A stretch of 64,000 nt of DNA from positions 54,151 through 118,150 of the forward strand of contig JAJYJS010000005.1 of assembly GCA_021789215.1 (NCBI GenBank), read 5' to 3'. Position 1 is the stretch's first letter, and every line of letters starts with the position of its first letter. The stretch comes from Nitrospirota bacterium. Its GTDB lineage: Bacteria > Nitrospirota > Thermodesulfovibrionia > Thermodesulfovibrionales > JdFR-88. The notes beneath the pieces were generated by a model, which was not told the DNA's origin, searched no databases, and saw only the letters and a list, made by a program, of their open reading frames with translations. The translations under genes were made by a program, and so were the position numbers. Of the stretch, positions 20,294 through 32,366 are shown one piece after another.

Positions 20294-20323
20294 TTGACAA
20301 AGGAATTTCAAATCTCTTAATAT
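20294..20323 (+). promoter_or_regulatory. Sigma70-like promoter for the downstream porin gene
   Basis: TTGACA - 18 bp - TAATAT, about 30 bp upstream of the ATG at 20355; RBS gaggagg at 20342. Confidence 0.55.
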
Positions 20324-20354
20324 GATGCAAATTTTTTCCACGAGGAGGATGGGA

Positions 20355-21896
20355 ATGAAGAAGTTTTTTCTGATTTTTGCCGCAGTCCTTCTCCTTCTGC
20401 CCTTCAAGAGTTATGCACAGACTACTGAAGACGAGCTCAACCAGAAGATAAACTCTCTGGACCAGCAGCTCAAGGCCCTTCAGCAGCAGATGCAGGACCT
20501 CCAGAAGCAGAAGGAGGAAGCCGCCGCCGCACCGGCGCCCGCACCGGCCGAGGCGAAAAAGGCGGCCGATTGGCCTAACTGGTTAGAGATCGGGGGCGAC
20601 TACCGCTTCCGCGGGGATTACCTCAGGGGCACGATACCTGCGTACTATCAGTTCGACCCCACAAAAGGGACCGCAACTCAGGTTTCCGGGTTTGCGGTGA
20701 AAAACAACACGCTTTTCACGAACCGCTTCGGCCTGAACTTAAAGGCCAGGGCAACGGAAGACATCCAGGTGAAGGCCCGTCTTCTCATGTACAAGGTCTG
20801 GGGAGAAGAGAGCTCGACCCCTGTGACCAGCGACAGCTTCTTCACGGACAGGGCCGGGGTGTTCGACGGCACGATTACCCATGTGCCTGATGACAACGCC
20901 CTGAGGGTCGATTACGCCTATGCCACATGGAGCAACGTGGGCGGAGCGCCGGTATGGTTCTCCATAGGCAGGAGGCCGTCCACGGGCGGGTTGCCCAGCA
21001 ATATCAGAGAGTTCCGTGAAAAGCCCGGCACCGCCGGCATACCGAGCATCATGGTTGACTACGCGTTTGACGGGGCCACCCTGGGCGTTGCCCCGTACAT
21101 AGAGGCGCTCCCCGGCGCGTATGCCAAGATATGCTACGGCAAAGGCTACGATTCCGGCTTCAGGTCGGAAGCGAATTCGCTGCACGACACCCAGATGATC
21201 GGCGTCAACGTCGTCCCCTACGACACGGACAACCTCACCATCGAACTCCAGTGGAACAGGGCCATCGACATATTCGATTTCCCGCCCGATTTCGTAATAA
21301 CCAACCCCAATCTGATTAAGGCTTTCGGCACGAACACCTTTCAGCCGTCCGCAAATCTGGGTAATATAGACCAGTTCGGCGGCGTTGTAACGGGAAAGGT
21401 CCTGGAAAACCTGAACCTCTTTGCCTCGGCCGCGTTGAGCAAGACGCATCCGAATGGACACAGGTCCATGTTGGGCCCCGGGCTTCTTGACAATGCCGGG
21501 ACCACATCTCACACCGGCTACGGCCTTTATGTCGGCGGCCGCTATGACATGCCCTCAACCGGCACGATGATCGGCGCCGAGTACAACCACGGCTCCAAAA
21601 ACTGGATTACCTTCGCGCCCGCCGCAGACGACATGTGGACATCGAAGCTGGGCACAAGGGGCAATGTCTATGAAGGCTATGTGATCCAGGAGATAAAGAA
21701 GAGGCTCATCTCCAAAAACGGCCTGGCCTTCTTCAGGCTTGGCTACCAGTACTACACCTTCAATTACACGGGCTCCAACAGCTGGCTGGGTTCCTCTGTA
21801 AGCATGGACGACCTGAACAACCCGATGAACGCCCAGCTTTTTGCGCCTGTAAGGCATGCACAGGACATTTATCTTACGTTTGACGTCCGTTTCTAA
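20355..21896 (+). CDS. DUF3373-like outer-membrane porin with N-terminal coiled coil
   Basis: Signal peptide MKKFFLIFAAVLLLLPFKSYA; QQLKALQQQMQDLQKQ coiled coil; beta-barrel-like sequence ending ...DIYLTFDVRF. Confidence 0.75.
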   Translation: MKKFFLIFAAVLLLLPFKSYAQTTEDELNQKINSLDQQLKALQQQMQDLQKQKEEAAAAPAPAPAEAKKAADWPNWLEIGGDYRFRGDYLRGTIPAYYQFDPTKGTATQVSGFAVKNNTLFTNRFGLNLKARATEDIQVKARLLMYKVWGEESSTPVTSDSFFTDRAGVFDGTITHVPDDNALRVDYAYATWSNVGGAPVWFSIGRRPSTGGLPSNIREFREKPGTAGIPSIMVDYAFDGATLGVAPYIEALPGAYAKICYGKGYDSGFRSEANSLHDTQMIGVNVVPYDTDNLTIELQWNRAIDIFDFPPDFVITNPNLIKAFGTNTFQPSANLGNIDQFGGVVTGKVLENLNLFASAALSKTHPNGHRSMLGPGLLDNAGTTSHTGYGLYVGGRYDMPSTGTMIGAEYNHGSKNWITFAPAADDMWTSKLGTRGNVYEGYVIQEIKKRLISKNGLAFFRLGYQYYTFNYTGSNSWLGSSVSMDDLNNPMNAQLFAPVRHAQDIYLTFDVRF

Positions 21897-21959: not shown

Positions 21960-21995
21960 GGGGCCGAGAAACGGTGCTGAAAAACCGTTTTGGTT

Positions 21996-22080
21996 GTCAT
22001 TGCGAGCGAAGCGAAGCAATCTCATTTTTAAAAATCAGCAACTTATGAGATTGCTTCGTCGCTTTGCTCCTCGCAATGAC
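21996..22080. repeat. Imperfect inverted-repeat (MITE/REP-like) element
   Basis: Left arm GTCATTGCGAGCGAAGCGAAGCAATCTCAT, right arm ATGAGATTGCTTCGTCGCTTTGCTCCTCGCAATGAC. Confidence 0.75.
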
Positions 22081-22106: not shown

Positions 22107-23294
22107 CTAATAAGTAAACGTCACTTTCTTTTTCAGGCTGTAAATCGGGATTTCCAGCTTGGCCCCGGGGTGGTCGTACTTGAGGGTTATGGATACGTCC
22201 ACCGTCTTGGTGCCTTCGGCAACGGGTATGGCCATGTGCTCCCTCTTTACCGCGAGAGGCTGGAGGGTTGTATCGGCAAACCTCTTTATCTGCCAGGCGC
22301 CGTACCTCATGTCGCCGTCCACGTCCAGGCCGTACTGGACGTATTCCTTCTGCTCGGAAAATATCTTGTTTCCCTTGTCATCCTTAGCGGTCACATCCAG
22401 GACCACTTTTGATGTCCAGGGTCAGCCGTCCGGCGTCCTGTGGCCGGATTTGTTGTAGATATCGGCTGTAACTATTATCCTCGGGACCCATTTTGTGCCC
22501 GTCAGGTGCTTGTACCCTGTCGCGTCCGCGGTAACCTCAATCCCTTCTTTAACAATATCGGCCACGTATGCGCCGGGGAACGTGTGCCCTCGGTTTTTCT
22601 CCTTCATATGGCAGTCCTGGCACGTCTGCTGGCCGCCATACGGGGTGTAGGTGTTCAGGTACGAGTCGTAAAGGGTGTTGCACATGATGAGGTCGCTGTC
22701 CGGCGGGTTGTAGATGCCGTGGCACTGCCCGCAGAAGACGGACTCCTTTATTATGTTGGACTTCATGGTCTTGTGCGGCGCGCTCACTTCAGCGGGGCCG
22801 TACATGGCGTCTTTTTCCGGCACGCCGAGCGATGCTATGGCGGGCCTGTTTACGATGGTGTTATGGCAGATTACGCAGCCCACATTGAGCTTTTCAAGCT
22901 CCTTTTTTGCGGCCGCCTTTTTGGCCTCGTCCTTTTCGTCAACAGCCGCTACGATTAACTTGCCGATCTTAACCGCAAGCTCGTCGGAGGCTTGGGAGAG
23001 CTGCGGGGCGTGGCAGTGGAAGCACTTCATGAGGTCTTTCTTGTTGATGGGCCTGTCCCATTCCTTCTGTATGCCGACCGCAACGAAATTCCTTATGCCG
23101 CCCAGGGAATGAATCGTTGACTGCGAGTGATAGGACTTCTTCCACTCGTCGTAAATCTTCGCATGGCAGCCCTTGCAGGTTTCATCACTGTAGGCCTTGG
23201 CGAGGTCGTCTATGGTGTTGAACTCCGCATTGGCGGCCAAAGGCAAGGCGAAAATAAAGGCCGCTATTAAAAAAAACGTTGCCAAGTACCGCAT
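22107..23294 (-). CDS. Penta-heme c-type cytochrome with in-frame TGA, candidate selenocysteine (395 aa by read-through)
   Basis: Supplied ORFs 22422..23294 and 22107..22406 are in the same frame, separated by TGA (22424-22422) plus 5 codons; joined reading ...NKSGHRTPDG-U-PWTSKVVLDVTAKDDKGNK.... Five CXXCH motifs (CKGCH, CFHCH, CVICH, CGQCH, CQDCH) and a signal peptide. Confidence 0.75.
22393..22421 (-). promoter_or_regulatory. Candidate bacterial SECIS hairpin immediately 3' of the in-frame UGA
   Basis: mRNA UGA-C-CCUGGAC-AUCAAAAGUG-GUCCUGG: 6 bp plus one U/U mismatch, apical loop containing GU; G of that GU is 16 nt after the UGA. Confidence 0.55.
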
Positions 23295-31505: not shown

Positions 31506-31595
31506 CTACATAAACATTAAGGCAGCGGAAAAATGAAGTCAACACAAGGCAGGATGCTTTTAGGTTTTTTTCTCGATTATAATAAAAGCCTGCAT

Positions 31596-32366
31596 ATGAA
31601 CGGCACTGAAAAAAGGCTCATAACGAGGTTCAGGGAAAACAAGGGGGGAGGGTTTTTGGCCGAGGAAGACCCTGTTGCGGTGGAAAAGCGCCTGAGGGTG
31701 CTTGTAAACGGCAGGGAACTCTTCAAGCTTTATTGCAGCCCCATGATGATAAGGGAGCTTGTAACGGGGTTCATCATGACGGAGGGCCTGCTGAAGGGCG
31801 GCTTCTGCACGGAGCGGATGAGCATCGAGTACGGCGATGAAATAACCGTCGACGTCCCGGCTGACGAGACCCCGGAGCTTGGGGGCGGCGCGACCATCAC
31901 CTCCGGCTGCGGCGGCGGGATAACCTTCGAGAGATACGGCGATGAGGCCGCAACGGGGTTCGAGGGGATAAGGGGCGAAGACCTGAAGGCGCTGTTCATG
32001 AAGTTCCAGCAGGCGTCCACGCTTTACAGGCTCACGGGGTGCGTGCACAGCGCCGCCCTGTCCGACGGGGAACATATCCTCAGCCTCGCCGAGGACGTGG
32101 GCAGGCATAACGCCGTGGACAAGATTATCGGCCACGCAATCCTTGAAAACATCAGGCTCGACGACAAGATAATGCTCTCCAGCGGAAGGCTCTCCTCGGA
32201 AATAGCCGGGAAATGCGCCAGGTGGAAGATACCCGTGCTGGCAAGCCGGACAGCCCCGACATCCCGTGCGGTAGACATAGCCCAAAAGGCCGGAATAACG
32301 GTTGTGGGCTTCCTGAGGGGCCGGGGGTACAACATCTATACCCACCCCGAACGGATTTTTCTATAA
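31596..32366 (+). CDS. fdhD: Formate dehydrogenase accessory sulfurtransferase FdhD (ORF track start 31533)
   Basis: ELVTGFIMTEGLL, TITSGCGGG, GCVHSAALSDGEHILSLAEDVGRHNAVDKIIG, LSSGRLSSEIAGKCA. Confidence 0.93.
   Translation: MNGTEKRLITRFRENKGGGFLAEEDPVAVEKRLRVLVNGRELFKLYCSPMMIRELVTGFIMTEGLLKGGFCTERMSIEYGDEITVDVPADETPELGGGATITSGCGGGITFERYGDEAATGFEGIRGEDLKALFMKFQQASTLYRLTGCVHSAALSDGEHILSLAEDVGRHNAVDKIIGHAILENIRLDDKIMLSSGRLSSEIAGKCARWKIPVLASRTAPTSRAVDIAQKAGITVVGFLRGRGYNIYTHPERIFL

Follow-up and report, generated by a model that had tools for sequence, protein, structure and literature searches.

Inspection of the 64,000-nucleotide window, the whole stretch of Nitrospirota DNA that was analysed, revealed a multihaem cytochrome gene that appears to end at a TGA, beyond which the same frame remains open. 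This arrangement raises the question of whether the TGA terminates translation or encodes selenocysteine (Sec). A sequence-only reading of the locus had proposed a Sec-containing penta-haem c-type cytochrome, and this proposal was followed up by computational analysis.

An in-frame TGA in a pentahaem cytochrome gene

The ORF occupies positions 23294-22110 of the minus strand, with an ATG start at 23294 and the TGA at 22424-22422 as codon 291. It is followed in frame by 104 more open codons and then by a TAG at 22109-22107. The coordinates given in the sequence-only reading for the TGA, the 104 further codons, the TAG at 22107, the 395-aa product, and Sec at position 291 were all correct. Read-through yields a protein of 395 aa that begins with a signal-peptide-like segment, contains five CXXCH motifs, and carries a beta-rich C-terminal domain; its residue 291 lies within GHRTPDGU. 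The five motifs start at residues 40, 91, 140, 188, and 225, in agreement with the penta-haem assignment made earlier. The features of the gene are as follows.

22107..23294, minus strand: extKL-type gene, 395 aa with the TGA read as Sec, ending with the TAG
23226..23294, minus strand: putative signal peptide, approximately residues 1-23 (MRYLATFFLIAAFIFALPLAANA), predicted from the sequence
23163..23177, minus strand: haem motif 1, C40-H44 (CKGCH), invariant in 101/101 sequences
23010..23024, minus strand: haem motif 2, C91-H95 (CFHCH), from sequence and alignment of 101
22863..22877, minus strand: haem motif 3, C140-H144 (CVICH), from sequence and alignment of 101
22719..22733, minus strand: haem motif 4, C188-H192 (CGQCH), from sequence and alignment of 101
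22608..22622, minus strand: haem motif 5, C225-H229 (CQDCH), from sequence and alignment of 101
22422..22424, minus strand: TGA codon 291, read as selenocysteine (83 TGA and 18 Cys in 101 aligned sequences)

A profile search with the read-through product demonstrated membership of NCBIfam NF040886, "multiheme c-type cytochrome (seleno)protein ExtKL," with a score of 398.1 bits over residues 19-393 (cut-off, 250 bits). Because this match covers residues 19-393 and homologues are open across codon 291 in the same frame, the read-through extension is far beyond chance. When the window's ORFs of 150 codons or more that end with TGA were compared, the longest extension past the TGA was that of the ExtKL ORF. 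TGA terminates 22 of the 48 long ORFs in the window, which indicates that the standard code is used there and that TGA is an ordinary stop elsewhere, as the sequence-only reading had held.

Codon 291 is TGA or Cys in all aligned homologues

Genome contigs and a set of 296 genomes from the phylum supplied the homologues. The alignment established the equivalence of TGA and Cys at column 291, with TGA in 83 of 101 sequences, Cys in the other 18, and no other residue, as had been expected of a true Sec site. The same TGA occupies the same codon across several phyla, with both flanks conserved. An in-frame stop seen in just one assembly might be taken for a nonsense mutation, a pseudogene, or a sequencing error. 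The identical codon in the 83 sequences from several phyla, conserved on both sides, makes such an origin extremely improbable, and a sequencing error is refuted by the conservation of the TGA in many independent genomes.

The TGA might also be a real stop that separates ExtK (290 aa) from ExtL, two proteins of a conserved operon, a reading left open by Fujita et al. 2007 (PMC1914089). It would agree with the standard code, under which the two halves are called as separate ORFs, and with the 2007 paper, in which no SECIS was found. The 18 Cys homologues (L080-L097) argue against two proteins, since they carry a sense codon at this position and form one continuous ORF.

The Cys forms are found at three places on the tree, corresponding to at least three Sec/Cys changes, of either direction. 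Several of them come from genomes that also bear a Sec form (G165, G241, G275, and G183). An origin of the Cys forms through loss of the Sec machinery was rejected, as selA is kept in 9 of the 10 Cys-only genomes searched.

The host genome encodes the Sec machinery

Searches of the host genome demonstrated selA, selB, and selD, each over its cut-off, and one tRNA-Sec gene (selC) with the anticodon TCA, so that all four genes named in the sequence-only reading were located. The selD gene (L031) also codes for a selenoprotein: it carries an in-frame TGA of its own, at CAGU. A gene for the formate dehydrogenase accessory protein FdhD/NarQ, at 31533-32366 of the window, hints at another possible selenium user in the genome.

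A conserved SECIS hairpin follows the UGA

A SECIS directly after the UGA had been proposed from the sequence. A conserved hairpin is indeed present shortly 3' of the UGA, inside the coding sequence at codons 297-302; the stem drawn earlier was misplaced.

22387..22406, minus strand: SECIS hairpin GUGGUC-CUGGAUGU-GACCGC with the loop at 22400-22393, supported by synonymous-codon freezing and covariation

With the T of the TGA taken as 0, bases 18-23 of the conserved stem pair with bases 32-37. Among 63 TGA forms less than 80% identical to one another, synonymous identity at codons 297-302 was 0.88-1.00, whereas the mean over the whole gene was 0.42 (sd 0.14); the highest 7-codon windows for this measure fell in the same region. 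In the Cys forms, which are few, these codons are not frozen. Across 39 distinct sequences, the stem was paired in 86.8% of cells and showed 9 double-sided changes; its covariation score was reached by 0 of 500 shuffles. These comparisons establish conservation and covariation of the hairpin, and the restriction of this conservation to the TGA forms is a further argument against a stop between two proteins. The earlier CCUGGAC/GUCCUGG stem, which has a U-U mismatch, paired in 46.5% of cells in the 39 relatives, the same as in shuffled sequences, and showed no covariation. An Rfam search gave no SECIS match at the hairpin.

The stem is weak in two Geobacter-type sequences, L021 and L022. This weakness may be the reason why the 2007 study found no SECIS. 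Just 3' of the TGA, these two sequences fold into different hairpins, and the version in L022 includes the UGA itself (UGACCGAC...GUCGGUCA).

Relationship to ExtKL and MccSep

The protein is not novel; it is a divergent Nitrospirota member of the known ExtKL/MccSep family. The Geobacter gene was found by Fujita et al., who regarded it as possibly encoding a selenoprotein; no SECIS and no homologues lacking Sec were reported (PMC1914089). The name ExtKL was given by later papers on the ext cluster (PMC5877670, PMC6148476), and a 2026 review includes the protein (PMC13188914). Geobacter ExtKL has been linked to growth on Fe(III), and an extHIJKL deletion mutant reached 66% of wild-type growth on Fe(III) citrate (PMC6148476).

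The Nitrospirota protein and ExtKL of Geobacter sulfurreducens (GSU2937-GSU2936) share five CXXCH haems, the GHxxPDG-Sec motif, the beta-rich C-terminal domain, and an in-frame UGA in the same place. The Sec (UGA) or Cys expected after GHxxP[DH]G is present as the TGA at codon 291. Identity to the Geobacter-type sequences is approximately 30%, and the SECIS stem is clearer in the Nitrospirota gene than in L021 and L022. The Nitrospirota gene also differs in its location, since it does not lie within an extHIJKLMNOPQS cluster but adjoins a DUF3373 barrel gene and ftsE/ftsX-like genes; the ext-cluster context is a Geobacter feature that lies outside the NF040886 profile.

Comparison with the Protein Data Bank identified the "multiheme cytochrome c selenoprotein (MccSep)" (entries 9wt8-9wtc), with E ~1e-145 for the family profile and E ~1e-51 over residues 20-335 for the single sequence in phmmer. 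MccSep is a divergent homologue of the Nitrospirota protein that shares the unusual residue at the aligned site; the chains of 9wt8/9wt9 carry there either this residue (X) or its U325A mutation. The U325A chain sequence is common to 9wt9 and 9wtc, and the other MccSep entries are 9wt8, 9wta, and 9wtb. The MccSep chains, with Sec or U325A, span both halves of the protein. This is a third point against separate ExtK and ExtL proteins, and that reading is strongly disfavoured and very improbable.

The Sec reading of codon 291 is strongly supported by sequence comparison, for a host known from contigs alone. The gene at 22107-23294 very probably encodes an ExtKL/MccSep family selenocytochrome in which UGA codon 291 is decoded as Sec. 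Decoding would be carried out by SelB and tRNA-Sec, guided by the SECIS hairpin at 22406-22387.

Genomic neighbourhood

The gene next to extKL is convergent with it.

20322..21896, plus strand: DUF3373 outer-membrane beta-barrel (porin-like) gene, PF11853, 456.9 bits

This barrel gene is the only one of its kind found in the host genome. The convergent ExtKL-DUF3373 pair next to ftsE/ftsX-like genes is also present in JdFR-88, and a DUF3373 barrel adjoins ExtKL in G044 and G087 as well. The barrel is a possible partner of ExtKL. A constant partnership was not supported, because adjacency was detected by tblastn just in the host genome, JdFR-88, G044, and G087, in a search whose short flanks could miss distant barrels. 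Between the two convergent genes, at 21990-22080 of the window, is an extended inverted repeat, with ATTGCGAGGAGCAAAGCGACGAAGCAATCT as one of its arms. One match to the ATTGCGAGGAGCAAAGCGACGAAGCAATCT arm was found within the window, and the repeat may be a terminator for both sides or a dispersed palindromic element.

Possible roles of Sec291

The read-through product would be exported and would carry five c-haems. Electrons would run along the haem chain to Sec, which is predicted to sit shortly after an invariant His, at the boundary of the beta-rich C-terminal domain. A partner in the outer membrane might take part, the neighbouring DUF3373 barrel being one candidate. Sec is probably a redox site next to one of the haems, to which it may or may not be bound as a ligand. 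Two residues outside the haem motifs bear on this choice.

22680..22682, minus strand: C205, Cys outside the haem motifs, invariant in 101/101 sequences
22440..22442, minus strand: H285 of the GHRTPDGU motif, conserved His outside the haem motifs

Interchange between Sec and Cys is characteristic of redox-active sites. What is seen at column 291 fits a role of Sec291 as a redox-active nucleophile. Its substrate could be, for example, selenite or a different oxidised compound, the nearby haem would supply the electrons, and a selenenylsulfide with the invariant C205 might form. A link between ExtKL and selenite reduction, stated as preliminary (PMC5877670), points in the same direction. On the other side, the relatives 5ze8 and L024 retain C205 while having neither Sec nor Cys at 291, which indicates that C205 and residue 291 are not strictly coupled. 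A nucleophilic role for Sec291 has a little under an even chance of being correct.

Alternatively, Sec291, or Cys in some homologues, could ligate the fifth haem on its distal side. The resulting Se-Fe or S-Fe site would open to admit substrate or adjust the potential. The ExtKL alignment contains four conserved non-motif His residues (H56, H174, H237, and H285) for five haems, which leaves one distal site either vacant or occupied by C205 or Sec291. In more distant pentahaem relatives, column 291 holds His or Met, which are ligand-type residues too. In one related pentahaem family without Sec (L140-L143 and L145), the residue at the Sec column is always His (PTTH/PATH).

The structural model of the Nitrospirota protein (pLDDT 91.4) was similar in overall fold to the pentahaem cytochrome c552 of Thermochromatium tepidum (5ze8), with a TM score of 0.58 and E 5.5e-18 in the model comparison. 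C205 and the H..P.G-motif His are present in both proteins; the T. tepidum protein differs in having Ala at the Sec position. This Ala speaks against ligation by residue 291, as does C205, an equally invariant ligand candidate. Haem ligation by Sec291 is possible but doubtful. The more specific proposal of a natural selenolate-ligated c-haem, with Sec291 as the distal ligand of the fifth haem and Cys, His, or Met in its place in relatives, appears unlikely; if such a site exists, the MccSep structures may already show it. The Sec/Cys/His/Met pattern at one column would provide a simple test of Sec as a haem ligand.

The Cys homologues and the conserved, covarying SECIS, both reported missing in 2007, are modest additions to what is known of ExtKL. 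Automated gene prediction under the standard code ends ExtKL at the UGA, which makes the family easy to misannotate.
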